From Jilunia laotingensis (GTDB taxonomy: Bacteria > Bacteroidota > Bacteroidia > Bacteroidales > Bacteroidaceae): 64,000 nucleotides of DNA. Of this stretch, positions 5,546 to 19,480 are shown piece after piece; the stretch's first letter is position 1, and every line of letters starts with the position of its first letter. Location of the stretch: the NCBI RefSeq assembly GCF_014385165.1, contig NZ_JACRTF010000001.1, forward strand, positions 3,534,001-3,598,000. The letters are read 5' to 3'. The notes under the pieces are model-generated. The model ran no database searches. It saw nothing but the letters and a program-made list of their open reading frames with translations, and was not told where the DNA came from. The translations under genes were made by a program, and so were the position numbers.

Positions 5546-7183
5546 TTAGCTTTTTGCCTTAAAGACAGGTTCTGCTTTTTGTATTTCTGATTCATACCCG
5601 AACCAGAATCCTTGTTCTTCATCTTGATGCATCGGTAAATAACATAACCTTAAAGATTCCTTATATTCTCCATAGATGATAGTCCAATTTTTGGGAGGAA
5701 GTTGTCTTTTTGTTTTTACTTTTTCTGCTGGGATCTTTTTTAAAGACATTCCGGCTTCTATCCATGCAATACTTACCTTTGTTTGATAGTCCGGATAATT
5801 TTTCTTACAGAAATCATATAATATCATCCCTCTTCTTTCCAGACTTAAAGGCTGGTCTATCAATCCTATATTTATTAGATGATTCAGGAAGTCAGACAAG
5901 AAGTGCTTGTTTTCCAGCATTAGTGTTCTTGTGATCGATTGCCAGGCCGGAGTGTTGTAATAACCATCCAATAATCTTGAAAGAAAGCGTGCTGTTTGCA
6001 ATCCATCTACTGTGATTTCTCTGGTTTGCAATACTTCGTAAGGCGGAAGGGGAGAATACCGGATACCAAGCTCTTCCGCTCTTCTCCGCATCTCTGTACC
6101 GGGGAGTAATTTTAATGATTCCAACTGTATTTCACCAGCTCCATATTCGGCTAATGTATGTACGTCATCAAATATTTCAGGCAGATGATACAGTGGTAAT
6201 CCCGCTATGAGATCGGCATGTGTCACTGTATTGTTCAACGAGCATAGGTATTTCAGGCCATTCAATGCGTCAGCCAACCGTCCTATTCTTCGGCTTTTTT
6301 CCAGTACCGCTTCTTTTAAGCTCTGAATGCCAGCTTCCAGATGAAGTAGTCCTTTGGGCAGGCGTGCCAATTCCTGTTTCAATTCATCGGAGAGCAGTGC
6401 CGGATGTATCTCCAGATGAAAACAGATGTCGGGAGAAAATTCAAGGAAAAGATTGAGTAACTCTTTGGCTCGTTTATTATTATAGTTGAAAGTCCGGTCG
6501 AGTACACGGACATTTTTGATACCTTTCCGGTGAATTAGGATCAAACGTTCACGGATAGTATCTATAGATAAAGTTCGTACCGGCTTTTCACCACCACTCA
6601 CGCAAAATGCACAGGTATTAAAACAACCTCGCGTTGTTTCCAGTTGCACGAATGGTTTGCTCCAGTTGAAGAAACAGCTCTTTTCCGGAGCCTTGAGATG
6701 GGCAAAATCCATGACACGTGCAATGCCATTGTCTTGATAATTATGAGATTGATCTAGATAACAAAGCCCGGTGATGGTATTCCATTTTCTTGAATCGTCC
6801 CAAATTTCTATCCATTTAGGAAAAACTTCTTCGCCTTCTCCGCGAAAGACGCAGTTAACAAAGCTGTTTTTCCGTAGAAAGGCTTCGTTATCACCAAGAA
6901 ATTCCGGTCCGCCCAATGCAATGCAGCAATCTGGAAGCAATGTTTTGGCTCTTGATAGAATATGTAATAACTGTTCATGATTGAAAAGCCAGTTTGTAGC
7001 AGCGATAATATTCGGTTGATGGTGATAAATGCTGTTCGTCACCATTCCGATGTTTTCATTGATCGTAGCCGATACGATTTCCCATTCGATAGATTCGTTT
7101 GTTGCTGTCTGGGCATGTAAAGCCGGGAGTGCCAGTGAAGAATGTGCATAAGAGCTATTTAAATCGAGCCAAAGAATTTTCAT
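5546..7183 (-). CDS. B12-binding-domain radical SAM protein (DUF4080 type)
   Basis: A 545-residue protein. Residues 1-150 look like a cobalamin-binding Rossmann domain (MKILWLDLNSSYAHSSLALP, then GGPEFLGDNEAFLRKN). The radical SAM motif follows near residue 195 (TTRGCFNTCAFC, Cys-x3-Cys-x2-Cys), with a TIM-barrel region containing HADLIAGLPLY, and a C-terminal DUF4080-like domain. Family knowledge: these enzymes couple a [4Fe-4S]/SAM radical to a cobalamin domain, often for methylation or tRNA modification, but the substrate of this group is unknown. The start is set at the ATG at 7183, where homology-like sequence begins; a longer in-frame extension to 7306 reads as non-coding. Confidence 0.85.
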   Translation of the reverse strand: MKILWLDLNSSYAHSSLALPALHAQTATNESIEWEIVSATINENIGMVTNSIYHHQPNIIAATNWLFNHEQLLHILSRAKTLLPDCCIALGGPEFLGDNEAFLRKNSFVNCVFRGEGEEVFPKWIEIWDDSRKWNTITGLCYLDQSHNYQDNGIARVMDFAHLKAPEKSCFFNWSKPFVQLETTRGCFNTCAFCVSGGEKPVRTLSIDTIRERLILIHRKGIKNVRVLDRTFNYNNKRAKELLNLFLEFSPDICFHLEIHPALLSDELKQELARLPKGLLHLEAGIQSLKEAVLEKSRRIGRLADALNGLKYLCSLNNTVTHADLIAGLPLYHLPEIFDDVHTLAEYGAGEIQLESLKLLPGTEMRRRAEELGIRYSPLPPYEVLQTREITVDGLQTARFLSRLLDGYYNTPAWQSITRTLMLENKHFLSDFLNHLINIGLIDQPLSLERRGMILYDFCKKNYPDYQTKVSIAWIEAGMSLKKIPAEKVKTKRQLPPKNWTIIYGEYKESLRLCYLPMHQDEEQGFWFGYESEIQKAEPVFKAKS

Positions 7184-7468
7184 AAAAGAAGTTCTGCATT
7201 TAATGGGGCAAAGGTATGAAGAATTTGCGAGATTTTGGCAGGAATCACTACTTATCCGTTGCCTTTTTAGGCAGATAAATGTCAGATATAGCTTTAATTT
7301 TTTCACTCCAAACCGTAACCATCACCGCAAAGAACTCTGTGTGTGTCAACAAAGATGCGCATATTTTCCTGTTATCAGGCATCTCATTGAAAGCCGTTAA
7401 ATCCGAAGTAATTTTTTCCTATCGGAATAATCCGCATGGTCAGTTGTCCTATACCCGGATCTCGTTGG

Positions 7469-7615: not shown

Positions 7616-7682
7616 CAAAGGCAAAAGTAAAGCCCCGCAACGTCTTTGTTGCGAGGCTCAATTTGTTTTGTCAGGAAGTTCA
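7616..7682 (-). promoter_or_regulatory. Type 1 regulatory element E1 with orphan promoter
   Basis: Read on the minus strand: distal block TGAACTTCCTGACAAA, 7 bases, core GAGCCTCGCAACAAAG (7644-7659), 20 bases, then TGCCTTTG (7616-7623) in place of the usual TAnnTTTG. Spacing is identical to elements E2, E3 and E4. The same DNA can fold (GCCtCGCAAC with GTTGCGgGGC, followed by TTTACTTTT) and may also terminate transcription of the aldo/keto reductase gene that ends at 7727. Confidence 0.6.
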
Positions 7683-7726
7683 CTCCCTTTTTTGATTATT
7701 CAGTACCGGACTGAATGTGACTTGCT

Positions 7727-8743
7727 TCACTTATCTGTTCCTTCACTCCATTGTTTACCGAAACTCGTCTGTTCCGTTTCCACACATCCGCGATGTCCGT
7801 ACACCTTACATTCATCCAACGCTGATTGTAACTGTCGAAATTCATCATCGGAAAGAGTGACATTCCAAGCCCCTAGATTCTCCAGAATTCTTTCCTGATT
7901 CTTGGAACCGGGAATAGGTACGACATTGGGATATTTATGGAGCATCCACGCAAGTGATATCTGGGCGTTGGTAGCATTTTTCTCCACGGTGAACCGATGC
8001 AGCAAATCGAGTATGGGCTGGTTGCCCTCGATATTCTCTTTTGATAATTGGGGAACGAATTTCCGCACGTCATCGAAGCCGAACCACTCCTGTGACGTTA
8101 CCTTGCCTGAAAGGAATCCGCTTGCAATCGGTGAGAACGGTACGACTCCAATTCCTTTTTCAAGACATACCGGAAAAATCTCCGTTTCGCAATCGCGTTC
8201 CACCATCGAATAGATGTTCTGGACGGCAGACAAAGGAGTAATCTCATGCGCAGCTCGTATCTGGTCGGCCGATACTTGCGACAGTCCCCAACCACGTATC
8301 AGTCCCTCCTTAACAAGACGTCCCATGACGGTTGCCACATCCTCAAGCCGGACCGTCTCATTGATGCGATGCAGGTAATACAGATCGATATAATCCGTGC
8401 GAAGTCTGTTCATGGAATCTTCAAGATGCCGGTGTACTTCCCGGTAGAGATTCGTCTCGTCCGGTTTCGAAAGTTCACCAATATGAAATTTGGTGGCGAG
8501 TACCACCTCCTTACGGAACGGTTCCACAGCCTTACCCACCAACTCCTCGTTATGTCCAGCGTAGAATTGTTCTTTGCCATAGGCTTCCGCTGTATCAAAA
8601 TGCGTGCAGCCGTAGTCGTATGCCTTGCGGATGGCTTCTATGGCATACGTTTCGGGCGGTACTTGTCCATAACCGTGGCTGAATCCCATACATCCCATTC
8701 CTATCGGAGATACTTCCAATTGTCCTAATTTCCTTTTATCCAT
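7727..8743 (-). CDS. Aldo/keto reductase (AKR1), cytoplasmic
   Basis: A 338-residue NADPH-dependent aldo/keto reductase. The AKR tetrad is visible: Asp and Tyr in FDTAEAYG near residues 50-57, Lys in LATKFHIGE near residue 84, and His in LYYLHRINE near residue 125. The cofactor loop VPIPGSKNQERILENL is near residue 270. There is no signal peptide. Family knowledge: AKRs reduce aldehydes and ketones to alcohols. It is the last gene downstream of a type 2 element and two gene remnants (8781-9001). The usual YhdN/IolS-type C-terminus is present, though the final residues (TEQTSFGKQWSEGTDK) look extended. The substrate is unknown. Confidence 0.9.
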   Translation of the reverse strand: MDKRKLGQLEVSPIGMGCMGFSHGYGQVPPETYAIEAIRKAYDYGCTHFDTAEAYGKEQFYAGHNEELVGKAVEPFRKEVVLATKFHIGELSKPDETNLYREVHRHLEDSMNRLRTDYIDLYYLHRINETVRLEDVATVMGRLVKEGLIRGWGLSQVSADQIRAAHEITPLSAVQNIYSMVERDCETEIFPVCLEKGIGVVPFSPIASGFLSGKVTSQEWFGFDDVRKFVPQLSKENIEGNQPILDLLHRFTVEKNATNAQISLAWMLHKYPNVVPIPGSKNQERILENLGAWNVTLSDDEFRQLQSALDECKVYGHRGCVETEQTSFGKQWSEGTDK

Positions 8744-8780
8744 ATTGTTGTTTTTAGAGTAAGATTATTATTGAATTACT

Positions 8781-8900
8781 TTATTTCCTTATTTTTAACC
8801 ACTTCCTATAAGTCAGCATCCGCCAGCTCCATTCCAGAAGTCCGAGGCGGAAACAGGAAAGCCATAGGGCACTGAATACCATCTGGACAAGAAAGATCAT
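8781..8900 (-). pseudogene. C-terminal fragment of a DUF418 membrane protein
   Basis: On the minus strand, 39 codons ending at TAA 8781-8783 read MIFLVQMVFSALWLSCFRLG then LLEWSWRMLTYRKWLKIRK. The FGxLEWxWRxLTY pattern is the characteristic C-terminus of DUF418 family inner-membrane proteins, which are normally several hundred residues long. Everything upstream of this is missing and replaced by the start of a different gene. The first ATG overlaps the stop of that fragment. Confidence 0.7.
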
Positions 8901-9001
8901 TCATCCGTACTCAGTTGTTCGACCATCGGGCAGTCGATGCGGCCATCGACCGAAGTCATCATGTGACTGATTGTATATGGTCTCGTATTCTTGGTTTTTA
9001 T
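8897..9001 (-). pseudogene. N-terminal fragment of a RibD-like/dihydrofolate-reductase-family gene
   Basis: On the minus strand the frame reads RPYTISHMMTSVDGRIDCPM then VEQLSTDE and stops at 8897. RPYxIxHMMxSxDGRID is the typical N-terminus of the RibD C-terminal/DHFR-like reductase family, normally about 200 residues. Only 34 codons survive, and the expected start codon is ATA. It follows a good -7 box at 9010-9017, so the promoter remains while the gene has been cut. It joins directly to the DUF418 C-terminal fragment. Confidence 0.65.
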
Positions 9002-9009
9002 TTATAATA

Positions 9010-9065
9010 CAAAAGTAAGGTAGCTTCTCCGTTCTGCCGGTAGACAAATTACGGATTATACTACC
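9010..9065 (-). promoter_or_regulatory. Type 2 regulatory element C and promoter
   Basis: Minus strand: TACTTTTG (9010-9017) preceded at exactly 18 bases by the type 2 core, which on the plus strand reads GCCGGTAGACAAATTACGG followed by ATTATACTACC. GGTAG and CTACC form an inverted repeat. It would drive the RibD remnant, the DUF418 remnant and AKR1. It matches the elements at 17165 and 21657 in sequence and spacing. Confidence 0.55.
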
Positions 9066-9080
9066 TTATTTACTGATTCT

Positions 9081-10241
9081 TTATCGGCCTACCTGACGTT
9101 GCTGTTCGGCATTGTACCGGTCTCCCACAACGGGAATGGCAGCCACAGCGTCCTCCAGTTCTTTCCACTCCCCGGAGCCGATGTTGAAGTCGAGTGTGTG
9201 CAGGTTCTCCTCCAGATGTGACAATTTTGTCGTTCCCGGAATCGGTACGATCCACGGTGCCTTTTGGAGTAGCCAGCCAAGAGCCACCTGTGCCGAGGTC
9301 ATACCTCGTGTACGCCCGAAAGCTTGCAGTGCATTTACAATGCGGGTATTCGCACGCATCGCTTCCGGCTGGAAGCGCGGCAAGGTCTGGCGGTTGTCGT
9401 TGTTCACATCGAAAACCGTATATTCGTTGATACAACCTCCCAAAAAGCCACGGTTGATCGGACTGTACGGTACAAAGCCGATACCCAACTCTTGACATAC
9501 ATCAAGAACACCATTCTCTTCCACCAGACGGTGCATCAGATGGTACTCGCTTTGGATAGCTGTCAACGGGCAAACAGCGTGGGCTTTACGGATTGTTTCG
9601 GCACTGACCTCGCACATACCCCAGCGTTGCACTTTACCTTCCTTGATCAAGTCGGCAATGGTAGCCGCTACCTCCTCGGCCGGAGTATTCGGGTCGGCAC
9701 GGTGCTGGTAGAACATCGGCAGTGAATCGAGTCTTAATCGGTGAAGCGACTCCTCGCAGTAGCGACGGATAGTTGCCGGACGGCTGTCCTGACGACCGGT
9801 TCCTTTGCCGTTGATCACTTCATGCCCGAATTTGGTAGTCACGTTGATCCGACCTTTGAACTCGGACAGCGCTTCTCCTGCCAGGTTCTCATTGGTCAAC
9901 GGTCCATAAATGATAGCTGTGTCGAAGAGCGTTACTCCACGCTCTACCGCTTCATGCAACAGGCGGATACATTGTTTTTTATCGGGATGTTGACTGCGGT
10001 TGTAAGTCATGCCCATCACACCGAAACCGAGAGCCGACACCTCAAAGGCCGCCTTACCCGTACCCAATACACGATGTCCCTTAATACGGGTATCGGTATT
10101 GATACCTGATATTTCTGCTTGCCCTGTTTCCGAAGCGAATGCTTTGCTCAATCCCGAAGGCATGGCCATTGCGGCTCCTGCCAATGCAGCCGTTTTGAGA
10201 AATCCACGACGGCTGATATCCATTTTATTGTTTTCTTCCAT
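9081..10241 (-). CDS. Aldo/keto reductase with Tat signal (AKR2), exported
   Basis: A 386-residue protein. Residues 8-38 are a twin-arginine signal (ISRRGFLKTAALAGAAMAM then SGLSKAFASE). The reductase domain follows: Asp/Tyr in FDTAIIYGPLTNE, Lys in VTTKFGHE, His in MFYQHRADPNTP, and the cofactor loop IVPIPGTTKLSHLEENL. Inference: NADPH is bound in the cytoplasm and the folded enzyme is exported by Tat. It is the second gene after the SDR (25-base gap), both under element E2. It is a paralogue of the exported AKR at 20488-21639. The electron source in the periplasm is an open question. Confidence 0.9.
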   Translation of the reverse strand: MEENNKMDISRRGFLKTAALAGAAMAMPSGLSKAFASETGQAEISGINTDTRIKGHRVLGTGKAAFEVSALGFGVMGMTYNRSQHPDKKQCIRLLHEAVERGVTLFDTAIIYGPLTNENLAGEALSEFKGRINVTTKFGHEVINGKGTGRQDSRPATIRRYCEESLHRLRLDSLPMFYQHRADPNTPAEEVAATIADLIKEGKVQRWGMCEVSAETIRKAHAVCPLTAIQSEYHLMHRLVEENGVLDVCQELGIGFVPYSPINRGFLGGCINEYTVFDVNNDNRQTLPRFQPEAMRANTRIVNALQAFGRTRGMTSAQVALGWLLQKAPWIVPIPGTTKLSHLEENLHTLDFNIGSGEWKELEDAVAAIPVVGDRYNAEQQRQVGR

Positions 10242-10266
10242 GATTTTATGTTTTATGAATTATAAC

Positions 10267-11019
10267 TTAATGAATGGAAAATGCCCCGTCCACTAAAAGG
10301 GCGTGCCCGTCTACGAAACTTGCCTGCGGTGAGCAAAGCCACAATACGGCATTGGCTATCTCTTCCGGTTTACCGAGCCTTCCGGCAGGAATATCGCGGA
10401 CCAGTTCCTTTTCCAGATCAGGATTACGCCGTATCAGTTCTTCAGCCATAGGTGTTCGGATCACACCCGGACAGACGGCATTGATACGGATTCCTTTTGC
10501 CGAGTAGTCGATGGCAGCCGTGCGGGTCAGACCGATCACCGCATGTTTACAGGCGATATAGGCCGCTTGTCCGGGGAACCCCGTAACACCACCTTGCGAC
10601 GAGGTATTGACAATAGCGCCACTACCTTGTTTCAGCATCTGGATAATCTCGTAACGCATACAGTTCCATACACCTTTCAGATCGACAGCTACCGTGCGAT
10701 CGAATTCCTCGTCGGTAATCTCGGTCATTGGTCGTTGCGGGGTCTGTATCCCGGCATTGTTCAATGCAGCGTCCAGCCTGCCGTAAGTTGCAACGATCCA
10801 GTCGATCATCTCCTTTACAGCCTGCGTGTCGGACACGTCGCAGCGATATGCCACGGCTCTATACCCTTCTGAAACCAACTTCTCGACTTGTTCTTTCGGC
10901 TCATTGATGTCCACCAATACTACGGTTGCCCCCGCTTTTGCAAATGCTTCGGCCGAGGCCAGCCCGATACCTGCCGCTGCCCCCGTTACCATTACTACTT
11001 TTCCTTTTATTGTTTCCAT
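10267..11019 (-). CDS. Short-chain dehydrogenase/reductase (SDR)
   Basis: A 250-residue classical SDR. The nucleotide motif TGAAAGIG is near residue 12, LVDINEP near residue 35 places an Asp at the end of beta-2 (NAD preference), NNAG is near residue 88, and the catalytic Ser is in NTSSQGG with Tyr and Lys in YIACK near residues 140-156. Family knowledge: NAD(P)-dependent oxidation or reduction of alcohols/ketones. It is the first gene of a two-gene operon with AKR2. Its promoter at 11046-11053 carries the type 1 element. The substrate cannot be told. Confidence 0.9.
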   Translation of the reverse strand: METIKGKVVMVTGAAAGIGLASAEAFAKAGATVVLVDINEPKEQVEKLVSEGYRAVAYRCDVSDTQAVKEMIDWIVATYGRLDAALNNAGIQTPQRPMTEITDEEFDRTVAVDLKGVWNCMRYEIIQMLKQGSGAIVNTSSQGGVTGFPGQAAYIACKHAVIGLTRTAAIDYSAKGIRINAVCPGVIRTPMAEELIRRNPDLEKELVRDIPAGRLGKPEEIANAVLWLCSPQASFVDGHALLVDGAFSIH

Positions 11020-11045
11020 GATTCTTTTGTTTTAATGTTCTGATG

Positions 11046-11112
11046 CAAAGTTACGAAGAGAGTCCCGCAACAACTTTGCTGCGAGGCTCAACGTTCTTTG
11101 TCAGGAAGTTCA
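11046..11112 (-). promoter_or_regulatory. Type 1 regulatory element E2 and promoter of the SDR-AKR2 operon
   Basis: Minus strand: TGAACTTCCTGACAAA, 7 bases, GAGCCTCGCAGCAAAG (11074-11089), 20 bases, TAACTTTG (11046-11053). The start codon of the SDR is 26 bases downstream. The two CAAA half-sites are 22 bases apart, the usual spacing for an AraC-type dimer. Confidence 0.7.
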
Positions 11113-11152
11113 TTTTGTTAAAAAAGGAACGGGATGTATTTTATGGATTATT

Positions 11153-12217
11153 TCAATAGGTTATGGGACTACCGATGATACCATAGATTACATGCAGGCT
11201 GCTGTCCTTTGTTGCTGCCTGTTCGATTGTGCGGACTGGTTCGTCCCATGCGTGACGGGAGAGTGAATATTTGCTGTTGTGTACCGGCAGGACTTTAGCC
11301 GCATCCAGTTCGTGAATCTCAACCGGAAGCTGTTCGGGCATCGTATGGATATACCGCCAGTCTTCGTTGTATTGCCCGTTTTCGAGGATGGCAAGGTCGA
11401 TATGCGGAAACCGTTTGCCGATTTCCGAGAAATGGGCACCGTAGCCGCTGTCACCACCGATATAGACCATAGAATGCCCTTCGAGCATGAATGAAGCCCA
11501 CAGCGAGGGATTCTGCCGAAGGAACCGGCCTGAAAAATGGCGGGCAGGCAAACACGTGATCCGAAAGCCGGGTTCGGAGGTATAGACTTCATTCCAGTCC
11601 ATTTCGACAATCTTCTCTGCGGAATATCCCCAGTATTCGAGATGTTCTCCCACACCGAGCGGACAGATGACTTTATCCACCTTGTCGCGTATCGCTTTTA
11701 CAGTCCCGTAATCGAGGTGGTCGTAATGGTCGTGCGTGATGATAAGGTAATCCACCTCTGGGATGTCTTCCGGTGAGTAAATGTCCGTCCCCTTGAAAGG
11801 CTTCATCATAAGAGAGGCCGGGAAACCCGTCGTCAAAACCGGATCGACCAATATTTTCTTACCGCTGTTAATCAGCAGGTAAGACGAGTGGCCGAACCAT
11901 ACGACGGCATTTTTCGACAGGTCCAACTGTCTCAGGTCGGTCTTAACCGTACGGATGCTTTCGGACGGAACAAGATTGTCCGGTTTCTTTTCCGTCAAGT
12001 TGTCCCACATGATCCGCCACCGACTTTTATTGGTGGTCATAAACGGAGTCGGTTCCTGGTTTACGAATTGCCCCTCCTTGTAGTTCGGAGAACGTTTGAT
12101 CCGTACCAATCGTTCTCCACGAGGAGTACGGCCGAAAGCCGGATGGTTCAGAGCGATAATGACGGTAAGAACCAATACTACAAAAATGGATATACATATA
12201 ATCATTTTCTGTTTCAT
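11153..12217 (-). CDS. MBL-fold metallo-hydrolase (UlaG/NAPE-PLD-like), membrane-anchored
   Basis: A 354-residue protein with an N-terminal hydrophobic segment (MKQKMIICISIFVVLVLTVI), so probably anchored to or exported across the inner membrane. The metallo-beta-lactamase signature HDHYDH is near residue 165, VWFGHSSYLLI near residue 107 and GGDSGYG near residue 255. Family knowledge: the nearest relatives include the lactonase UlaG and N-acyl-PE phospholipase D. It is the fourth gene of the E3-driven unit, after cupin, flavodoxin and the chimeric pseudogene. Confidence 0.85.
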   Translation of the reverse strand: MKQKMIICISIFVVLVLTVIIALNHPAFGRTPRGERLVRIKRSPNYKEGQFVNQEPTPFMTTNKSRWRIMWDNLTEKKPDNLVPSESIRTVKTDLRQLDLSKNAVVWFGHSSYLLINSGKKILVDPVLTTGFPASLMMKPFKGTDIYSPEDIPEVDYLIITHDHYDHLDYGTVKAIRDKVDKVICPLGVGEHLEYWGYSAEKIVEMDWNEVYTSEPGFRITCLPARHFSGRFLRQNPSLWASFMLEGHSMVYIGGDSGYGAHFSEIGKRFPHIDLAILENGQYNEDWRYIHTMPEQLPVEIHELDAAKVLPVHNSKYSLSRHAWDEPVRTIEQAATKDSSLHVIYGIIGSPITY

Positions 12218-12221
12218 CCAA

Positions 12222-12727
12222 TCATGGTTTTATCTTACGAATAAATTTGGCGGGATTGCCCGCGACAAGGGTATTTGGCTCCACATCGTGCGTGATAACA
12301 CTGCCGGCTCCGACCACAGCATTCTCACTGATGGTAACTCCGGGCAGGATGGTGCCCCGGCTCCAATCCATACCTTCCGGCAGATATGTACCGGCTTGCA
12401 GGTAATCACATGACGATTCTCTGGATCGTGGTTATTTGAGATAAGCTGGACGTAAGATAACATCAATCTGTTTCTCCTTGCATATTCTCTGTCCGTCGAG
12501 TACGCTCGGATTGTATTTGGGTTGGGTTCGATGCCCCCCAATTCGTGGATTTCAAAATCCTTGAGTAGTTCCTTCACCTTGTCATAAAGTCCGAGGCGTT
12601 TGATGCTTCTCCCACCGTAGGCAAGAAGGACTTTATTTCCGATGGGGCGCATTACTTCGGGTAGTCTGTTGATAATACCTTTCCCGAAAATCAAACGGGT
12701 CGGGGTATGATATTTGGAATTTTCCAT
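12222..12727 (-). pseudogene. Chimeric scar: alcohol dehydrogenase N-terminus joined to acetyltransferase C-terminus
   Basis: The first about 70 codons (MENSKYHTPTRLIFGKGI...VLLAYGGRSIKRLGLYDKVK...GIEPNPN) are the N-terminus of an iron-containing (BDH/YqhD-like) alcohol dehydrogenase. After EPNPN the sequence changes to a left-handed-beta-helix acetyltransferase (VQLISNNHDPENRHV, KVWIGAGA). The frame then breaks at a one-base deletion; in the shifted frame the true C-terminus reads on (TILPGVTISENAVVGAGS, AGNPAKFIRKIKP) to a TGA at 12222-12224. Neither half can be functional. It sits in frame within the operon, starting 11 bases after the flavodoxin stop. Confidence 0.85.
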
Positions 12728-12738
12728 ATCTGTCGTTT

Positions 12739-13311
12739 TTAGAGTTTTTCAATAATCTGCTTCGACCATCCGGTGACGTTTGCCGTACCACCGTTGAACA
12801 GTCGGCCTTCTTCCCATTCGATTTTGGGGTAGAGCCTCTTGAGTTGTTTCACGCTACCCGTGATTGAACTGCCACCTGAAGTGGCAAACGGAATAACGGT
12901 TTTACCCGCGAAATCATATTTCTCAAGGAACGTATTGACCGGACGCGGACACAAGTCCCACCATATCGGATAACCGAGGAACACCACGTCGTAATCTTTC
13001 AGGTCAATCGTTTCTCCACCTAACGCAGGACGTGATTTTTCGTCTGCCATCTCCACCGAACTGCGACTCGCCTTGTCGTTCCAGTCAAGATCTGCCGAAG
13101 TGTAGGCCGTAGCCGGAGTAATCCGGTAAAGTTTACCGCCAGTCTCTTTTGCAATAGCGGTTGCCACTTTCTCTGTGGTCCCCGTGCAGGAGAAATAGGC
13201 TACAAGGATTTTCTTGTCGGATTGCCTGTCGGTATCCGCTGTCTGTTTTTGTGCTTTCGACGAGCAACTGAAAGTAAGTAGGCTCATAAGTATCAATACT
13301 ATCTGTTTCAT
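12739..13311 (-). CDS. Lipid-anchored flavodoxin
   Basis: A 190-residue protein with a lipoprotein signal (MKQIVLILMSLLTFSCSS, lipobox TFSC) followed by a flavodoxin domain. The FMN phosphate loop reads SCTGTTEKVA near residue 43, and GYPIWWDLCPRPVNTF near residue 110 and FATSGGSSITGS near residue 140 are the usual loops of the flavodoxin_4 family. Its start lies one base after the cupin stop, so the two are cotranscribed from E3. Export of a flavodoxin is notable because FMN is normally cytoplasmic; a related domain occurs in the lipoprotein at 15875-16921. Confidence 0.88.
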   Translation of the reverse strand: MKQIVLILMSLLTFSCSSKAQKQTADTDRQSDKKILVAYFSCTGTTEKVATAIAKETGGKLYRITPATAYTSADLDWNDKASRSSVEMADEKSRPALGGETIDLKDYDVVFLGYPIWWDLCPRPVNTFLEKYDFAGKTVIPFATSGGSSITGSVKQLKRLYPKIEWEEGRLFNGGTANVTGWSKQIIEKL

Positions 13312-13312
13312 G

Positions 13313-14146
13313 TCATTTTAATTTAGAATATTCTTCATCACCGACAGGTTCCAGCCACTCGGTACTGTTATTCTCACCGGGCACTTCGATGGCCAGATGC
13401 GAGAACCAGCTGTTGGGAGCTGCCCCGTGCCAATGTTTCACGCCTGCCGGAATATTGATAGTATCTCCGGGACGCAATTCCACCGGCTCTTTGCCCCATT
13501 CCTGGTAGTAGCCGCGACCGCCCACGCATACGAGTGTCTGACCACCGCCTTTTGTAGCCTTGTGTACGTGCCAGTTGTTGCGGCAGCCCGGCTCGAAGGT
13601 CACATTTACCACGGGGACTCCGTTCGTTACCACGGGAGCCGTGTAACTTTGACCGATGAAATACTTGACATAGGCATCGTTGGGTTTCCCCACGGGGAAA
13701 ATGATGGTTTGCGCGTACGCTTCGAGCGAACCTGCCGCTACGCTGTCTGCATTACCGTCGGTCCAAACCTCTTTTGCCATACGGAAAGCTGCCCACGCTT
13801 TCGGCCAGCCCGCGTAGAATGCGGCATGGGTGAGTATTTCGGCTATCTCGGTTTGAGTCACTCCGTTCTTTTTCGCTGATTCGAGATGGTACTTGAACGA
13901 GGAATCGGTCAGTCCCTGCGACATCAGGGCCACCACGGTTACAATGGAGCGGTCGCGGAGCGAAAGCAGATTGTTCCGGCTCCACACTTCCCCGAAAAGA
14001 ATATCATCATTCAAACGTGCAAATTCGGGGGCAAATTCTCCGAGCGCGTCGCGTCCGGCAGTCTGTTGGATTTTTACTTGTGATTTTGCCATGATCGGAA
14101 AAATTAAAATCAATAATAAAGCTAATGATGCTACTTTTGTTTTCAT
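13313..14146 (-). CDS. Exported carboxymuconolactone-decarboxylase/cupin fusion
   Basis: A 277-residue protein: signal peptide (MKTKVASLALLLILIFPIMA), CMD/AhpD-like helical domain (residues 40-130, with LRDRSIVTVVALMSQGLTD and ILTHAAFYAGWPKAWAAF), then a C-terminal cupin (residues 165-260). The cupin metal ligands are visible in FEPGCRNNWHVHKATKGGGQ and GVKHWHGAAP. The CMD domain lacks the AhpD CxxC pair, with TH at that place. Family knowledge: CMD-cupin proteins are often cotranscribed with aldo/keto reductases. First gene of the E3 unit; paralogue of the protein at 18645-19469. Substrate unknown. Confidence 0.9.
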   Translation of the reverse strand: MKTKVASLALLLILIFPIMAKSQVKIQQTAGRDALGEFAPEFARLNDDILFGEVWSRNNLLSLRDRSIVTVVALMSQGLTDSSFKYHLESAKKNGVTQTEIAEILTHAAFYAGWPKAWAAFRMAKEVWTDGNADSVAAGSLEAYAQTIIFPVGKPNDAYVKYFIGQSYTAPVVTNGVPVVNVTFEPGCRNNWHVHKATKGGGQTLVCVGGRGYYQEWGKEPVELRPGDTINIPAGVKHWHGAAPNSWFSHLAIEVPGENNSTEWLEPVGDEEYSKLK

Positions 14147-14207
14147 ACGATATGATTTTTAGTTCGACATTTCCAAGACAATCAACAGGTTTTTCCTGTT
14201 TCCGATA

Positions 14208-14274
14208 CAAAAGTACAGGCATTATTTCACAACAGCTTTGCTGCAAGGCTCAAACTGTTTTGTCCTGAAGTTCA
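14208..14274 (-). promoter_or_regulatory. Type 1 regulatory element E3 and promoter of the cupin-flavodoxin operon
   Basis: Minus strand: TGAACTTCAGGACAAA, 7 bases, GAGCCTTGCAGCAAAG (14236-14251), 20 bases, TACTTTTG (14208-14215). The cupin start codon lies 62 bases further on. It is placed between the AraC gene and the operon, as expected for a local regulator. Confidence 0.7.
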
Positions 14275-14276
14275 TC

Positions 14277-15089
14277 TTACCATGAAGGAGCGACACCATA
14301 AGCCTCCTTGTATATCTTGGAGAAATGTGACAGATTCTTGAAGCCCACATCGAAACAGGCTTCTGTCACTTTCTTTTTGCCTGATTTTATCAGACCGTGT
14401 GCAGCCTCCAAACGACGTTTGATAATCCACTTTTGCGGTGTCAGGTTGCTTACTTTGGCAAAGTCCCGCTTGAAGGTAGCCAGGCTGCGTCCCGTGTAAC
14501 TGGCAATCTCCTCCAGAGAAAGATCACACATGTAGTTCTCGTTCAGATAGTCGAGAATGTCGATTTTCCACGGCTCCACGAAGTCAAACAACGAGGCATA
14601 GAGATTCCGGTCGGTATTGAGCAATACATATATCCCTTCTACCATTTTCAACTTCAGTACGTCTTCGGACGGTTTTTCGCCTGCATCGAAATAGGGAATG
14701 ACGGATTCGAACAGCGAACGGATATCCGGTCGGTTACTTGGCAGTACCCGCAGGCTTACCTTCTCGCGTTCGGAATCAGTCGGAATTTGTTGCCGGTTAA
14801 GTGTCTGGTAAAATTCTCTTAGAAACGGTCTTGAGAACTTCAATACGATAGAACGGTAAGGCTTTCCGTTCTCAACCTTTTTCTGTAACCACATTCGGTT
14901 ATCGCGCCGCATGAAAGCACAATCCCCCGGATGCAACACGGTTTTCTTTCCACGTTCTTCTATTTCCAGTTTGCCGGAGCATAAATAAATAAGTGTATGC
15001 TCCCTGTTTTCGTGGGCACATTCCCTGTCATCGGAGAAATAACTTGCTATAAGCATGTTCGAGCAATCGAATACATCTAATCGTTCCAT
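14277..15089 (-). CDS. AraC-family transcriptional regulator 1
   Basis: About 270 residues with an N-terminal cupin-like sensor (TLIYLCSGKLEIEERGKKTVL, LHPGDCAFMRRDNRMWL) and the two C-terminal AraC helix-turn-helices (LEEIASYTGRSLATFKRDF; VTEACFDVGFKNLSHFSKIY). The start is set at the ATG at 15089 (MERLDVFDCSNM). An upstream in-frame ATG at 15113 lies inside its own -7 box (15111-15118) and cannot be transcribed. It is flanked by type 1 elements E3 and E4, so I infer that it controls the E-type promoters and itself. Confidence 0.9.
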   Translation of the reverse strand: MERLDVFDCSNMLIASYFSDDRECAHENREHTLIYLCSGKLEIEERGKKTVLHPGDCAFMRRDNRMWLQKKVENGKPYRSIVLKFSRPFLREFYQTLNRQQIPTDSEREKVSLRVLPSNRPDIRSLFESVIPYFDAGEKPSEDVLKLKMVEGIYVLLNTDRNLYASLFDFVEPWKIDILDYLNENYMCDLSLEEIASYTGRSLATFKRDFAKVSNLTPQKWIIKRRLEAAHGLIKSGKKKVTEACFDVGFKNLSHFSKIYKEAYGVAPSW

Positions 15090-15110
15090 ATTGTCAGTCT
15101 TTAATTTTCG

Positions 15111-15154
15111 CAAATATAATGCATTCCAACCACAGAATCTTTGTTGTAAGGCTC
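15111..15154 (-). promoter_or_regulatory. Type 1 element E4 and promoter of AraC regulator 1
   Basis: Minus strand: GAGCCTTACAACAAAG (15139-15154), 20 bases, TATATTTG (15111-15118). Core and spacing match E1-E3, but the distal TGAACTTC-block is absent, replaced by TTTTCCAAA, so only one good half-site is present. This fits weaker autoregulation. Confidence 0.6.
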
Positions 15155-15307
15155 AAATTTGGAAAACGGATAAAATATTTTTGTACACCTAATCTTGTAT
15201 GGAAGCAGTTGCCTTACTGTTTACAGTACAACACATTACGGTTTCAACGGACCATAATAGTAAGATGCCGTGGCACCACCATTGATCAGAAAATCCGAAA
15301 TAATACA

Positions 15308-15871
15308 TCAGCGTAACCTTTTTATAAATTTAGCTGGGACACCGCCTACGACTGTATTTGCTTCCACATCTCTTGTTACAACCGCTCCGGCTCCGACAAC
15401 AGCATTGTCACCGATTGTTACACCTTGCAAGATTGTTGCATTGGAACCTATCCATACATTCCTGCCAAGAACGATAGGTGCGGGATAAGTCGTCTGGCGG
15501 TCTTTCGGAACCAAGCCATGATTAAGTGTGGCAAAAACCACATTATGCCCGATCTGGCATCCGTCACCGATTATCATTCCGCCATGGTCCTGAAAATGGC
15601 AACAGGCATTGATGAAGACTCCCTCACCGACGGTAATGTTCTTGCCGAAATCGGTATAGAACGGTGGAAATACCCGAATTGATTCCGGCACCTTGTAACC
15701 GAACAGTTCTGAGAGCAATCCGCGTACTTCGTCGGGTGTGTGGTATGCTGTATTCAACCGGAAAGTGATACGTCTGGCCTCATTACTCATATCGTCCATG
15801 AAACGGTGTATCTCCTCCGTATTGAGTGCTTTACGCGTTTTTACATATTCTTTGAATTTATCCGTTTCCAT
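15308..15871 (-). CDS. Sugar O-acetyltransferase (LacA/maltose acetyltransferase family)
   Basis: A 187-residue hexapeptide-repeat acetyltransferase. A helical N-terminal region (RITFRLNTAYHTPDEVRGLL) is followed by left-handed beta-helix turns (GKNITVGEGVFINACCHF, VWIGSNATILQGVTIGDNAV). The catalytic His is in FATLNHGLVPKDR near residue 120, and the terminal VVGGVPAKFIKRL motif is typical. Family knowledge: transfers acetyl from acetyl-CoA to a sugar hydroxyl. It is the last gene of the tautomerase-flavodoxin unit, three bases after the preceding stop. It is an intact counterpart of the fragment in the chimera at 12222-12727. Confidence 0.88.
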   Translation of the reverse strand: METDKFKEYVKTRKALNTEEIHRFMDDMSNEARRITFRLNTAYHTPDEVRGLLSELFGYKVPESIRVFPPFYTDFGKNITVGEGVFINACCHFQDHGGMIIGDGCQIGHNVVFATLNHGLVPKDRQTTYPAPIVLGRNVWIGSNATILQGVTIGDNAVVGAGAVVTRDVEANTVVGGVPAKFIKRLR

Positions 15872-15874
15872 CTC

Positions 15875-16921
15875 TTATCTCCTTTCTATTTTCACGGGTA
15901 TATCCCCAGTTACACTTAACACTTCGATACCGTTTCCGTCAATACGACCGATTTTAATCAGGTCGCGACTATGTGACCAGCTCTTACAGAAAATCGCTAC
16001 ATTGCCCCACGGTGCATAGATAGCTATATCACCGGGCGTAGGAGTACAGCCCCGAGTGACGCCTTCGGTCGTTAGAGCCGGATCTGGATAGAAAATCTTC
16101 TCTGTCGTGTTGTTATAATCGTTCAGTGTTATCTCAAGAGGCAGGCGCGAGAGAAAATCCCGTGCGGTGGCATTGTCTTCCATCGTAGCGGTGATGGTGC
16201 GGTCACCGACTGTAATGTTTACGTTCAATGAAGATACATCGGGAGTTTCGGGTTCTTCCCGTCCGGCTCCAATCCCGTCGAGCCATTCTGTAACACGATT
16301 TTCCATTTGAGAGAGGGTTGAAGAGGTTAGTAATAAAGTCTGGTTGATTACGGTTGCATCTGGACAAAGGCTACGGGCTTCGCTGGCCGAAGTCGATATT
16401 CCGCTACTGCCGCTCGTGGCGAACAAGGCGATTCGTTTGCCGGTGAGTTTCGAGGCGTGTTCATGCAGAAACGTCTGCATTGGTGTCGCCATACTGCCGT
16501 ACCAAATAGGATAGCCGACGAAGACTATGTCATAATTATCAAAGTTTTCCAGCGTTGTTTTAATAGCCGGATAATTACCTTGCTGGATAGCGGCCAACTC
16601 TTCCTGCGAGCGTTCCAACATGGCATTGTAGTCATCTTCGTAAGGCGTTTGCGGCTCGACTTCCAATATATCGCAGTCGAGTGTTGTCTGAATCTGCCGT
16701 GCCACCCGTTCGGTGTTGTTCGTGCGCGAAGCATACAGTACCAAATAGCAGCCGTTACCACCGGGTGTCGGTGTATTGGGTTCATTGTTATCGCCTCCCG
16801 GCTGTTCGGGAATTTCCGGTTGTTCGGGGCTGAACGGCTCATCATCGGAACCGCTGCAGGTTACCATCGACAGGACGGTCAACAGTAACAAGAGAATCAA
16901 TAATAACTTTTTCATATTCAT
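15875..16921 (-). CDS. Lipoprotein with flavodoxin and cyclophilin-like domains
   Basis: A 348-residue protein: lipoprotein signal (LLLILLLLLTVLSMVTCSGS), a proline/asparagine-rich linker, a flavodoxin domain (residues 58-215: YASRTNNTERVARQIQ, GYPIWYGSMATPMQTFL, FATSGSSGISTSASE) and a C-terminal cyclophilin-like domain (residues 230-345: NVNITVGDRTITATMEDNAT, then PTPGDIAIYAPWGNVAIF). This fusion is found in several gut Bacteroidetes; its role is unknown. The start overlaps the tautomerase stop by four bases (ATGA), so it belongs to the same transcript. Confidence 0.87.
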   Translation of the reverse strand: MNMKKLLLILLLLLTVLSMVTCSGSDDEPFSPEQPEIPEQPGGDNNEPNTPTPGGNGCYLVLYASRTNNTERVARQIQTTLDCDILEVEPQTPYEDDYNAMLERSQEELAAIQQGNYPAIKTTLENFDNYDIVFVGYPIWYGSMATPMQTFLHEHASKLTGKRIALFATSGSSGISTSASEARSLCPDATVINQTLLLTSSTLSQMENRVTEWLDGIGAGREEPETPDVSSLNVNITVGDRTITATMEDNATARDFLSRLPLEITLNDYNNTTEKIFYPDPALTTEGVTRGCTPTPGDIAIYAPWGNVAIFCKSWSHSRDLIKIGRIDGNGIEVLSVTGDIPVKIERR

Positions 16922-17130
16922 TTCTTATTTGGATCTATAATGATTGTTCCTGCCGGAATGCGCTGCATTGAATTTTCCCAGTCTTTCATCTCCACATCTT
17001 CGACGGATACGGATACGAATTTGGCGTCGATTCCGAGGGTTTCAATCAATGTGTTGCACAAATTCTCGGCTAATTTTTGTTTTGTTTCCCAGTCTCTGCC
17101 GGGTAACATGGTTACTGCAATGTGTGGCAT
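16918..17130 (-). CDS. 4-oxalocrotonate tautomerase family protein
   Basis: A 70-residue protein beginning Met-Pro, so that after Met removal Pro1 is the catalytic base of the tautomerase fold (PHIAVTMLPGRDWETKQKLA). The C-terminus (RIPAGTIIIDPNKK) is shortened but typical. Family knowledge: members act on enols or unsaturated acids and are often linked to aromatic or electrophile metabolism. It is first in an operon with the flavodoxin-cyclophilin lipoprotein and the acetyltransferase, and carries a type 2 promoter element upstream. Confidence 0.85.
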   Translation of the reverse strand: MPHIAVTMLPGRDWETKQKLAENLCNTLIETLGIDAKFVSVSVEDVEMKDWENSMQRIPAGTIIIDPNKK

Positions 17131-17164
17131 AATCTTTTGTTTTTATTTGTTTATCTCTTTGATG

Positions 17165-17236
17165 CAAAAATAGACAGTCTCCGTCACACGCTTTGTAGAT
17201 AATTCCTCGGTATTTATACCCGAATTACGGATTATG
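17165..17236 (-). promoter_or_regulatory. Type 2 regulatory element A and promoter of the tautomerase operon
   Basis: Minus strand: -7 box TATTTTTG (17165-17172). Exactly 18 bases upstream begins the core, which on the plus strand reads CTTTGTAGATAATTCC and TCGGTATTTATACCCG. A further ATTACGGATTAT follows at 17224-17235. Sequence and spacing match elements B and C. Confidence 0.65.
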
Positions 17237-17328
17237 CTTTTTTAAAGGCAGAATCATCCCCGAAAAAACGAAAACTCCCGTAATCGTTTGAATTATGGGA
17301 GTATAAAAGTAATTTATAAGTATATTTA

Positions 17329-18180
17329 TCATGTCGGGCACTTGATACTATAGAGCCGCTGCACCTCTTCCGGAGTGTGTAGGTCGAGAATCGTGTTGCA
17401 TCCCGTATTCATGGAAGCGATTGCGGCCATATCCTCCGACGTCAGTATGAAATCCTTGATGTTGAAATTCTCTTCCATCCGCTGCCGATGTACTGATTTG
17501 GGAATGGCGATAACTCCTCGCTGTAAGTGCCAGCGCAGTACGACCTGTGCCACCGATTTATCGTATTTGCGACCGATGCCGGTCAGAATGTCGTCCGTGA
17601 ACAATCCGTTCCGTCCTTCGGCCAAAGGCCCCCATGCTTCTGCTTGTACGCCCAGTTCCTGCATGATCCGTATCGCTTCGGTTTGCGGAGTATAAGGATG
17701 CCCCTCTATCTGATTGACCGCTGGAATAACATTCGTGTTATAGTATAAATCCAGCAGTCTGTCCGGCTCGAAATTGCATACCCCGATAGCCCGTACACGA
17801 CCTTGTATATAGAGTTCTTCCAGAGCCCGCCATGCTCCGTAATAGTCACCGAAGGGCATATGGATCAAATATAGGTCGAGGTAATTCAACTCTAAACGGG
17901 CGAGCGAAGCATCGAATGCCCGCAATGTCCGTTCGTAACTCATTTCCGAAATCCATGCTTTGGTCGTGATGAACAGCTCCTCACGTAGAATACCACTTTT
18001 CCGAATAGCCGCACCGACCGCTCGTTCGTTACCATAGACCGAAGCAGTGTCGATAAGTCGGTATCCGATGGCAAGTGCATCAGTAACAACGCTTTCACAT
18101 TCGGAAGCATTGGGTATCTGAAAAACACCGAATCCCTGTACCGGCATCTTGATTCCATTATTTAATACTTTAAAATTCAT
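17329..18180 (-). CDS. Aldo/keto reductase (AKR4), 2,5-diketogluconate-reductase type
   Basis: A 283-residue cytoplasmic AKR of the single-domain DkgA-like branch, distinct from the other three here. It begins LNNGIKMPVQGFGVFQIP, with the tetrad in LIDTASVYGNE (Asp, Tyr), ITTKAWISE (Lys) and LIHMPFGDY (His). The cofactor segment is VIAIPKSVHRQRMEENF. It is the last gene of the element-B operon, starting just behind a DUF418 pseudogene. Family members reduce keto-sugars, methylglyoxal and similar carbonyls; the substrate here is not known. Confidence 0.9.
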   Translation of the reverse strand: MNFKVLNNGIKMPVQGFGVFQIPNASECESVVTDALAIGYRLIDTASVYGNERAVGAAIRKSGILREELFITTKAWISEMSYERTLRAFDASLARLELNYLDLYLIHMPFGDYYGAWRALEELYIQGRVRAIGVCNFEPDRLLDLYYNTNVIPAVNQIEGHPYTPQTEAIRIMQELGVQAEAWGPLAEGRNGLFTDDILTGIGRKYDKSVAQVVLRWHLQRGVIAIPKSVHRQRMEENFNIKDFILTSEDMAAIASMNTGCNTILDLHTPEEVQRLYSIKCPT

Positions 18181-18183
18181 ACT

Positions 18184-18640
18184 TTATAAATTCTTTTTTA
18201 ATAGATTCAATCTTTTGTTGTAAACCAGCATACGCCAGATCTATTCCAATAACCCGAACTGACCGTACAAAAACACCTTGTATCAGAAATCGGAAAACAT
18301 CATCGTAACTATCCGCGTCCCTTAGCCAGATTCCGAAATTATCATCCGTTATTCCATAAAGTCCGCAGTAATATTGTTGCCACCGAACTACCGCTTCCGA
18401 CAGGTTGATGCCACCTATTACAGTCAAGACATCTACGACTACGGGAAAAACGATAAATACGGCAGAAAGCCACAATAGTTTTTTGTCGGAGAGTTTCAGG
18501 AATAAGGGCAGCAACATTCCCAAAAGAGCATACAAAAGCAGGATGTCACCGCTCCAAATAAACATCAGATGTAAGAATCCGATCAGAGCAGCACGAACAT
18601 CCGGTGATAAAAAACACGAAAGTCGTTTGGATTGACAGAA
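18184..18640 (-). pseudogene. Decayed DUF418 membrane protein gene
   Basis: Minus strand. The piece NPNDFRVFYHRMFVLL is in one frame. After a frameshift come IGFLHLMFIWSGDILLLYAL and LLPLFLKLSDKKLLWLSAV, typical of DUF418 N-terminal and middle parts. Near 18280 the sequence jumps to the C-terminus in another frame (FLYGQFGLLE, then TAG where TGG is expected, then IWRMLVYNKRL), ending at TAA 18184-18186. The true N-terminus and the middle third are missing. It lies between cupin 2 and AKR4. This is a second, independent DUF418 remnant in the cluster. Confidence 0.75.
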
Positions 18641-18644
18641 GTCA

Positions 18645-19469
18645 TTATTTATTCTGTTCGAGCTTGTCGTACTCCTCGTCCGTGACCGGTTCGAACCATT
18701 CGTTGGATGTTTTTTCTCCCGGAACCTCGAAAGCCAGATGCGCAAACCAACTGTCGGCTGCCGCTCCGTGCCAGTGTTTCACGTTAGCTGGAATATGGAT
18801 GACCGTACCGGGCAGAATCTCTACTGCTGGCTTGCCTTCTTCCTGATACCAACCTCGTCCGGCTATACCGATAAGCATCTGTCCACCGCCTTTTGTTGCT
18901 TTGTGGATATGCCAGTTATTACGGCAGCGAGGCTCGAATGTGACGTTTGCTATCGACACTTGATCGCCCGAAACGGGTGCGAGGTAACTGTTGCCGATGA
19001 AGTATTGGGCGTATGCTGCATTCGCTTCGCCGATAGGGAAAATCATCTCACGCTGGAAAGCAGCTTTGGCATCTTCACTGGCAGTATCTTCCGCCCATAC
19101 GCCTTTGGCGAGGTTGAATGCCGCCCAAGCCTTCGGCCAACCCGCGTAGAATCCGATATGAGTAATGATTTCAGCGATCTCGGTACGGCTAATACCGTTC
19201 TTCTTTGCTGTCTGGAGGTGGAACACGAGCGAATTATCCGTGATACCCTGACTGATAAGGGAGGTAATCGTTACTAAACTACGGTCACGCAGACCGAGTT
19301 TATCAGTGCGGCTCCATACTTCGCCGAAGAGAACATCGTCATTGAGTTCCGCAAATTTGGGTGCGAACTCACCGAGTTGGGTGCGTCCTGCCGTTTGTAC
19401 TATCTTTTCTTGTGCCATAACATTGAGTGTTAAAATGCTGAATATTGAAATTAAAAGAATCTTGTTCAT
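18645..19469 (-). CDS. Exported CMD/cupin fusion, paralogue of 13313-14146
   Basis: A 274-residue protein: signal peptide (MNKILLISIFSILTLNVMA), CMD domain (LRDRSLVTITSLISQGITD, IITHIGFYAGWPKAWAAF) and cupin domain with ligands in FEPRCRNNWHIHKATKGGGQ and NVKHWHGAAADSW. It is nearly collinear with the protein at 13313-14146 over the full length. Third gene of the element-B operon (AKR3, flavin reductase-ABM, cupin, DUF418 remnant, AKR4). Function is inferred to be periplasmic; the substrate is unknown. Confidence 0.9.
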   Translation of the reverse strand: MNKILLISIFSILTLNVMAQEKIVQTAGRTQLGEFAPKFAELNDDVLFGEVWSRTDKLGLRDRSLVTITSLISQGITDNSLVFHLQTAKKNGISRTEIAEIITHIGFYAGWPKAWAAFNLAKGVWAEDTASEDAKAAFQREMIFPIGEANAAYAQYFIGNSYLAPVSGDQVSIANVTFEPRCRNNWHIHKATKGGGQMLIGIAGRGWYQEEGKPAVEILPGTVIHIPANVKHWHGAAADSWFAHLAFEVPGEKTSNEWFEPVTDEEYDKLEQNK

Positions 19470-19480
19470 AGTTGTTTTAT

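Follow-up and report, generated by a model that had tools for sequence, protein, structure and literature searches.

The Locus

The stretch of DNA considered here, hereafter the window, comprises 64,000 nt of the genome of Jilunia laotingensis (Bacteroidaceae; contig NZ_JACRTF010000001.1, positions 3,534,001 to 3,598,000). It contains a compact set of minus-strand genes for reductases and other redox proteins, together with a gene (araC) encoding a regulator of the AraC family. Four promoters in this set share an operator-like element at a fixed distance from their -7 box, and at some of them the element folds with the adjacent spacer DNA into a terminator-like hairpin. An earlier interpretation, made from the letters of the window alone (the sequence-only reading), had recognized the shared element and assigned it to a class-II-like activator. 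The features of the locus, all on the minus strand, are listed below in the direction of transcription; sites are named by the first position of their -7 box, and box scores (bits) are from the position weight matrix described below.

15139..15155, minus: single box of the araC promoter, without upstream box or hairpin (27 bits; the position 22 bp upstream scores -58; fold z = +1.1)
15111..15118, minus: -7 box of the araC promoter, TATATTTG, 20 nt from the box
14277..15089, minus: AraC-family regulator, 270 amino acids, ExsA_N/cupin-type sensor and HTH_18 (Pfam PF22200, PF12833 and PF00165 above cut-off); proposed activator of all four sites
14258..14274, minus: distal box of the CMD-cupin/flavodoxin operon, 2 nt from the araC stop codon (19 bits)
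14236..14252, minus: proximal box of the same operon, without strong hairpin (26 bits; -6.2 kcal/mol, z = +0.6)
14208..14215, minus: -7 box of the same operon, TACTTTTG, 20 nt from the box
13313..14146, minus: CMD-cupin fusion protein, first gene of the operon (Pfam PF02627, PF07883)
12739..13311, minus: flavodoxin (Pfam PF12682; NCBIfam PRK07116 above cut-off)
12230-12727, minus: frame that opens with a short fragment from the N-terminus of a yqhD-type alcohol dehydrogenase (Fe-ADH, residues 9-72)
11153..12217, minus: metallo-beta-lactamase-fold (MBL) hydrolase, last gene ahead of site 11046 (Pfam PF12706)
11096..11112, minus: distal SDR-AKR2 box, at 22-bp pitch to the proximal one (19 bits)
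11074..11090, minus: proximal box of the SDR-AKR2 promoter, doubling as hairpin 5' arm (27 bits)
11060..11089, minus: hairpin of 12 pairs with one mismatch, then TCTTCGT, occupying most of the spacer (-16.8 kcal/mol, z = -2.6, reached by 3 of 200 shuffles)
11046..11053, minus: -7 box of the SDR-AKR2 promoter, TAACTTTG, 20 nt from the box
10267..11019, minus: SDR oxidoreductase (Pfam PF13561)
9081..10241, minus: aldo-keto reductase with TAT signal, AKR2 (Pfam PF00248, PF10518)
7727..8743, minus: aldo-keto reductase AKR1, the gene ahead of the orphan site (Pfam PF00248)
7666..7682, minus: distal orphan-site box, at 22-bp pitch to the proximal one (18 bits)
7644..7660, minus: proximal box of the orphan site, doubling as 5' arm of a 12-bp hairpin (27 bits)
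7630..7659, minus: terminator-like hairpin, 12 bp with 6-nt loop, then TACTTTTG, about 67 nt past AKR1 (-20.8 kcal/mol, z = -4.4, reached by 0 of 200 shuffles)
7616..7623, minus: orphan-site -7 box, matching TAnnTTTG but for one base

Architecture of the Proposed Operator

A pattern search of the whole window finds the core GAGCCTYRCARCAAAG in four exact minus-strand copies, at 7644-7659, 11074-11089, 14236-14251 and 15139-15154. At all four sites the spacing from its end (CAAAG) to TAnnTTTG is 20 nt, exactly as the sequence-only reading had reported; the -7 box itself matches perfectly at three sites and with one mismatch at 7616-7623. Allowing up to three mismatches adds two matches (25805 and 41651), giving a total of six, compared to a mean of 2.49 in shuffled sequence, and five of 100 shuffles reach six or more. 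At this tolerance the count is not rare by itself; what exceeds chance is the exact cores and their phase.

A further block upstream of three of the cores is present, as had been stated, at sites 7616, 11046 and 14208 and missing at 15111. Block and core had been described as two blocks with CAAA half-sites 22 bp apart. The 22-bp spacing is confirmed, and the repeat extends to the whole box: TGAACTTCCTGACAAA (block) and TGAGCCTCGCAACAAA (core) are the same 17-bp box twice, forming a direct repeat TGARCYTYRCARCAAAG with a pitch of exactly 22 bp. The proximal box occupies the place of the -33 TTTG and ends exactly 20 nt before TAnnTTTG. The araC gene (14277-15089) does lie between two copies, with boxes at 14236-14274 on one side and 15139-15155 on the other. 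The repetition of a single box, the one-box araC promoter and the terminator-like hairpins, including those at 7616 and 11046, are additions to the earlier description.

Scanned with the weight matrix, the window yields beyond these a single box above 13 bits: at 6750 on the plus strand, it scores 14 bits, lies inside a radical SAM frame and has no -7 box. This frame, beyond the orphan site, encodes a B12-binding radical SAM protein of the DUF4080 type (5546-7306, minus strand), and there is no evidence of its membership in the regulon. A second, similar gene set (Maa, flavodoxin, AKR, CMD-cupin and flavin-reductase/ABM genes, minus strand) lies at 15308-23540 and adjoins two tandem plus-strand AraC genes (21796-22692 and 22710-23540); because it has no box above 13 bits, it is probably a separate regulon.

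Conservation of Box, Pitch and Phase

Relatives were collected by a protein scan with the regulator, and the best 80 of 120 confirmed loci (L-numbered) were analysed together with the window. They come from Bacteroides, Parabacteroides, Alistipes, Rikenella, Butyricimonas, Barnesiella, Muribaculaceae, uncultured Bacteroidales and others, and include one Chryseobacterium. The weight matrix (consensus TGAGCYTYRCARCAAA) was trained on the 80 loci plus the window, the same sequences that it later scored, and detects 203 boxes above 15 bits in their 1,154,628 bases, versus 5 in one first-order Markov resample. Both dimensions of the element are conserved. All 62 same-strand box pairs within 60 bp have the 22-bp pitch, and an exact TAnnTTTG stands 20 nt past the proximal box in 111 of 153 cases (boxes above 13 bits); other exact gaps occur in 8, comprising two each at 19 and 21 nt and four elsewhere within 40 nt. 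Number of boxes follows promoter type, with a single box at 53 of 55 araC promoters and two boxes at 67 of 74 others; these counts take -7 boxes with at most one mismatch, leaving the others out, and upstream boxes above 8 bits.

An excerpt of a study of the Bacteroidetes sigma-ABfr promoter gives TAnnTTTG at -7 and TTTG near -33 (PMC7366714). None of the 138 distinct sites tested here has TTTG at -33, as expected if an activator takes its place. Position, phase and this absence fit the class-II-type activator that had been proposed from fixed phase. At 23 of 57 sites following araC, the element begins with the stop codon of that gene, a TGA, so that no separate terminator would fit ahead of it; in the window 2 nt separate stop codon and element.

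Several variants were observed. The Chryseobacterium araC promoter (L069, 7916) has two boxes, unlike nearly all other own promoters. In three Barnesiella loci (L026, L029 and L066, near 7934) the araC promoter reads AGAGCCTCACAGCAAAG, with the first base of the box altered. A group of AraC proteins 42-45% identical to the regulator (L121, L124, L133, L134, L137 and L140, near 1500-1545) has a very similar box, TGAGCCTCACARCAAn, after the gene, again with a spacer hairpin, of 11-12 pairs (L133 and L140 are identical there). AraC proteins 91-97% identical occur across Bacteroides, Parabacteroides, Rikenella, Alistipes and Butyricimonas (L001-L006) and are intermixed on the AraC tree, so the locus seems to move between families.

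The Probable Regulator of the Boxes

By sequence, the product of 14277-15089 belongs to the AraC/XylS family. Its C-terminal double helix-turn-helix matches HTH_18 at 65.1 bits and HTH_AraC at 45.5 (cut-offs 33.6 and 26.6), and its N-terminal sensor/dimerisation domain matches ExsA_N at 53.5 bits (cut-off 27). ExsA_N and a sub-threshold Cupin_2 are the sole matches in the N-terminal half, and the closest solved structures by sequence cover the DNA-binding half only.

The sequence-only reading had suggested scanning related genomes for the core followed by 20 nt and TAnnTTTG, with hits expected only near AKR, CMD-cupin, flavodoxin and AraC genes. We scanned 18 whole genomes, picked because the locus is present in them. 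They contain 22 copies of the exact 16-base core (0 of the reversed-pattern control); 20 copies are at the araC locus, and the idea that it is scattered at random positions was rejected on these counts. The two exact copies elsewhere are at G005:C60, beside a truncated araC (L111), and at G014:C39; the latter (121492-121507), off that genome's araC locus, is not among the matches to core plus -7 box. With up to two mismatches, core and -7 box together give 40 matches in 17 of the 18 genomes (control 1), of which 34 are at the locus, in agreement with the prediction. Five of the six others, at four places (G006:C6 apart), were inspected. One match lies with a gene for an AKR2-like aldo-keto reductase with TAT signal (L113), and two overlapping matches accompany CMD-, flavodoxin- and AKR1-like genes, with an AraC relative about 3.5 kb away on the same contig (L116). 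The remaining two lie with a Maa gene (L114) and a gene for a 335-amino-acid protein of no identified family (L111), the former beside an araC remnant and the latter beside the truncated araC.

A survey of 99 genomes from the genus of G001 (G001 and three others of the 18 included) relates the site to the protein. An AraC relative at E <= 1e-40 is present in 55. The site with at most one mismatch occurs in 21 of these and in none of the 44 without a relative; with two mismatches allowed the figures are 26 of 55 and 2 of 44 (reversed control 5 of 99), and for the tandem pattern 21 of 55 and 0 of 44 (control 0 of 99). The association has a Fisher p = 6e-7 with genomes taken as independent. The one-mismatch site is missing from 34 of the 55 genomes, many of whose relatives are just 35-45% identical; among 15 genomes that we listed as having a strong orthologue, 13 have the site at up to two mismatches and two (G072 and G098) do not. 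At the loci found by pattern search (L121-L145), a relative of AraC, AKR, Maa, CMD, yqhD or SDR lies within about 1.5 kb in 22 of 25, a count without a chance-neighbour control that includes three at 26-29% identity only (L131, L135 and L145; L125, L129 and L141 have none).

Given this locus specificity and the co-occurrence of 21 of 55 versus 0 of 44, the regulator of the boxes is very probably the AraC protein of 14277-15089, and the view that they form a regulon of the local AraC-family protein, as had been proposed, is well supported and very likely correct. A different regulator might bind the boxes, with the protein of 14277-15089 a bystander, and the window does encode two other AraC proteins (21796-22692 and 22710-23540). 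We consider this highly improbable: the box tracks this AraC family across genera, stands both in its own promoter and right past its stop codon, and (at up to one mismatch, with the -7 box) is absent from every genus genome without an AraC relative. Boxes and spacing are plain in the DNA; that the protein binds them and activates the promoters is what we infer.

A Hairpin between Operator and -7 Box

At about half of the target promoters (those other than araC's own) the proximal box and spacer fold into a strong hairpin, in which the box is the 5' arm while the 3' arm and a T-run fill the spacer. Two types occur. In type A, GAGCCTCGCARC and GYTGCGAGGCTC pair around a 6-nt loop, and the end of the spacer is rich in T; in type B, which uses other columns, AGCCTCGC and GCGAGGCT pair, again around 6 nt, and in most cases a run of T follows. 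Requiring at least 10 of 12 pairs for A or 7 of 8 for B, we found 42 A, 8 B and 37 with neither in 87 distinct target sequences (sites containing N or with the -7 box off 20 nt, e.g., L045 and L057, were left out). Without 17 hand-picked sequences the counts are 30 A and 8 B of 70. Neither type was found in the 51 distinct own-promoter sequences.

Folding energies agree. A dG of -13 or lower was found for 47 of the 87 targets (54%; 37 of the 70 not hand-picked), compared to 11 of 331 (3%) other TAnnTTTG sites outside open frames of at least 100 amino acids and none of the 51 own sites. Against 100 shuffled spacers each (p <= 0.01), folding is significant at 27 of 61 sites after araC, at all 11 sites that follow a different co-directional gene, and at 3 of 9 others, 0 of 55 own promoters and 1 of 17 boxes without a promoter. 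In the window, features of an intrinsic terminator are present at 7616, partly present at 11046 (one mismatch, weak T-run) and lacking at 14208 and 15111. A simple terminator scan of the window reports 17 sites versus a shuffle mean of 11.9, with the 12-pair hairpin 7630-7659 in the first row; that at 11046 is unflagged.

The two arms vary together. Pairing is 71% in register and 22-46% when the register is shifted by up to six columns. In all 87 sequences, with no filter for pairing, 60 double-change cells were counted versus a shuffle mean of 31.6, and none of 500 shuffles reached 60. Hairpin types are clustered on the AraC tree, a quick tree with many weak branches: for 53 labelled rows in three states it requires 12 changes, against a mean of 22.6 after shuffling. 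All type B rows lie inside one well-supported clade, which also has hairpin-less rows.

Site 7616 appears to have lost its genes. No evident operon follows it in the window, nor in G097 (L146, which stops about 650 bp further along), whereas its counterpart in L004 is followed by a flavodoxin-like frame (34 bits to the window flavodoxin). Our preferred reading of the site is a promoter whose operon was lost while the hairpin stayed. In the counterpart in Bacteroides salyersiae DSM 18765 (L001), the proximal box and hairpin stretch are replaced by other sequence; the replacement (approximately 15373-15519) measures about 147 bp, has inverted ends and is perhaps a small mobile element, and the distal box and the leader beyond are kept. 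Since the hairpins stand at 7616 and 11046 and none is at 14208, transcription of araC may read through into the CMD-cupin operon, with the ends of the MBL and AKR1 genes predicted to be closed.

Terminator, Protein Site or By-Product

We read the hairpin as a terminator for the gene in front, built from the operator of the operon behind. Predicted from sequence, this is a good inference, with the balance moderately in its favour. The stop codon often lies so near the element that a separate terminator would not fit, and for this reason we take the arrangement to reflect selection for a terminator that reuses the operator. A role as leader or attenuator of the downstream gene was rejected: the hairpin is upstream of the -7 box and hence outside the downstream transcript.

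Several observations weigh against a terminator. The 37 targets that form neither hairpin, window site 14208 among them, imply that it is not essential. Type A T-runs are short and interrupted, and the simple scan flags one of the two window hairpins. Of 60 targets with a co-directional gene end no more than 150 nt away, 35 have a hairpin, as do 6 of the 14 other targets and none of the 14 own-promoter sites that have such a neighbour; a clean tie to co-directional upstream genes was not obtained, the comparison being confounded and based on crude open reading frame calls, with several of the "others" apparently mis-called. The covariation is also less than clear-cut, with 6 stem pairs showing any double change versus a shuffle mean of 5.6. 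A register slid by -3 likewise beats nearly all shuffles (1 of 500 reaches it), and the own-promoter set mildly exceeds shuffles on double-change cells (16 of 500 reach it). The shuffles ignore relatedness, which on the evidence of these results explains part of the signal.

The hairpins might instead be inherited by-products: if the element was duplicated between operons along with a chance inverted repeat, functionless hairpins would result. Promoters within one locus are alike, related loci tend to share a hairpin type and relatedness makes up part of the covariation signal, but the contrast in folding energy between targets and other intergenic TAnnTTTG sites (54% versus 3%), the preservation of pairing through two-sided changes, and the orphan site, which keeps 12 of 12 pairs though its operon is gone, leave this account little chance. 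An RNA role would also be superfluous if the spacer arm were a third, reverse-oriented AraC box serving repression or looping in a plain AraC operator. AraC proteins are flexible in how they arrange on DNA, bases 1-12 of the box are similar to the arm, and the arm's position between box and -7 would suit repression. Scored as a box, however, the 3' arm has a median of -8.1 bits and a maximum of 10.2, with 0 of 42 above 13, and its last five columns, in the place of the near-invariant CAAA, score -14; on these figures the inverted arm was rejected as a third box. The type B arm, moreover, lies at another register and overlaps the box itself, and we regard a plain AraC operator as improbable. 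The palindrome might also be bound by some other protein, such as a dimeric repressor, or act as a DNA structure; dyad symmetry of a protein site would give the same covariation as a perfect inverted repeat. Such a site would have to accommodate two geometries, with 12-bp and 8-bp arms and 6-nt loops, one of them (B) confined to one AraC clade and both followed by T, as well as stems made of other letters (e.g., L011 at 11494 and L068 at 4166), and this explanation we judge unlikely.

Likely Signal and Comparison with Known Systems

The products of the operons, a CMD-cupin protein, flavodoxin, MBL-fold hydrolase, SDR and two AKRs, are probably a reductase set for aldehyde detoxification. L001 has a yqhD-like frame of 1.2 kb at the place of the window frame 12230-12727, and the window copy is therefore taken to be truncated. 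With reductases and redox proteins as targets (AKR, SDR, flavodoxin and CMD-cupin; YqhD-like in relatives), the most likely inducer would be a reactive aldehyde or other electrophile, perhaps sensed by the conserved cysteines C24 and C57, which are located in the sensor half; of 74 aligned regulators, 71 have C24, 72 have C57 and 70 have C245. A signal of the electrophile or redox kind is thus plausible.

At E. coli araBAD, class-II activation works through I1 and I2, to which AraC binds: two 17-bp half-sites in direct repeat, separated by roughly two turns of the helix, with the near one next to the upstream promoter hexamer. The element described here likewise has two 17-bp direct repeats with the near box adjoining the core promoter; it differs in its pitch of 22 bp (21 at araBAD), its -33/-7 promoter and the use of the near box as one arm of a hairpin. 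In gene content the locus resembles the E. coli YqhC regulon (yqhD, dkgA/yqhE), in which an AraC-family activator also lies beside aldehyde reductase and aldo-keto reductase genes. AKR genes are present here, and yqhD in the window as an N-terminal fragment only; the set is wider (SDR, flavodoxin, CMD-cupin; Maa in relatives), and the promoters are of Bacteroidetes type with tandem target boxes. Excerpts of the literature report that glyoxal and furfural activate the yqhD promoter, to which YqhC binds (PMC5297802), and describe YqhC as of AraC-N type (PMC8262776). Orthology to YqhC was rejected, as the N-terminal domain here is of ExsA_N/cupin type, unlike that type as excerpted; no YqhC model was among the NCBIfam matches (the library's content for YqhC was unchecked).

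The hairpins resemble intrinsic (Rho-independent) terminators in their GC-rich stem, short loop, T-run and location just past a gene end, and differ in lying wholly inside the next promoter, with an activator box as 5' arm. According to an excerpt of PMC6978380, once its RNA has been released at an intrinsic terminator in vitro, the polymerase can slide along to a promoter close by and initiate again; there, as excerpted, terminator and promoter are separate elements on designed E. coli templates, whereas here the terminator would sit within the promoter. Among the literature matches listed, judged by title and opening of the abstract and with most subscription journals outside the scope, none concerned this operator or a natural operator-terminator.

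Proposed Mechanism and Significance

We propose that two regulator subunits would bind head-to-tail to the two 17-bp boxes 22 bp apart, the near box replacing the -33 element, so that the bound regulator would recruit RNA polymerase, in class-II geometry, to an otherwise weak promoter. The araC promoter, with one box in the same phase, would probably show weaker autoregulation. Transcription of the gene in front would copy the near box into RNA, where it could pair with the 3' arm from the spacer between box and -7; the GC-rich hairpin and U-run would bring the upstream transcript to an end within the next promoter, short of that promoter's start. A single DNA stretch would in this way be the operator for one gene and the terminator for its neighbour.

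A further step, in which the element is a dual code (the near box, letter for letter, being also the terminator 5' arm between -33 and -7) whose two functions are coupled, is doubtful. Polymerase ending the upstream transcript would halt atop the next -7 box, to be reused if regulator is bound and otherwise to occlude the promoter; conversely, bound regulator may change how often the upstream transcript ends there. Were this coupling true, expression of the regulator or of an upstream operon would directly set the state of the next operon.

Box, 22-bp pitch and 20-nt spacing define an exact, portable operator for an AraC regulon in many Bacteroidales and one Chryseobacterium, and this definition opens their likely aldehyde or redox response to direct tests. 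Should the hairpins terminate transcription, they would provide a clear case of a DNA segment selected twice, as protein site and as RNA structure, and tightly packed co-directional operons would be insulated with almost no spare DNA from stop codon to operator.

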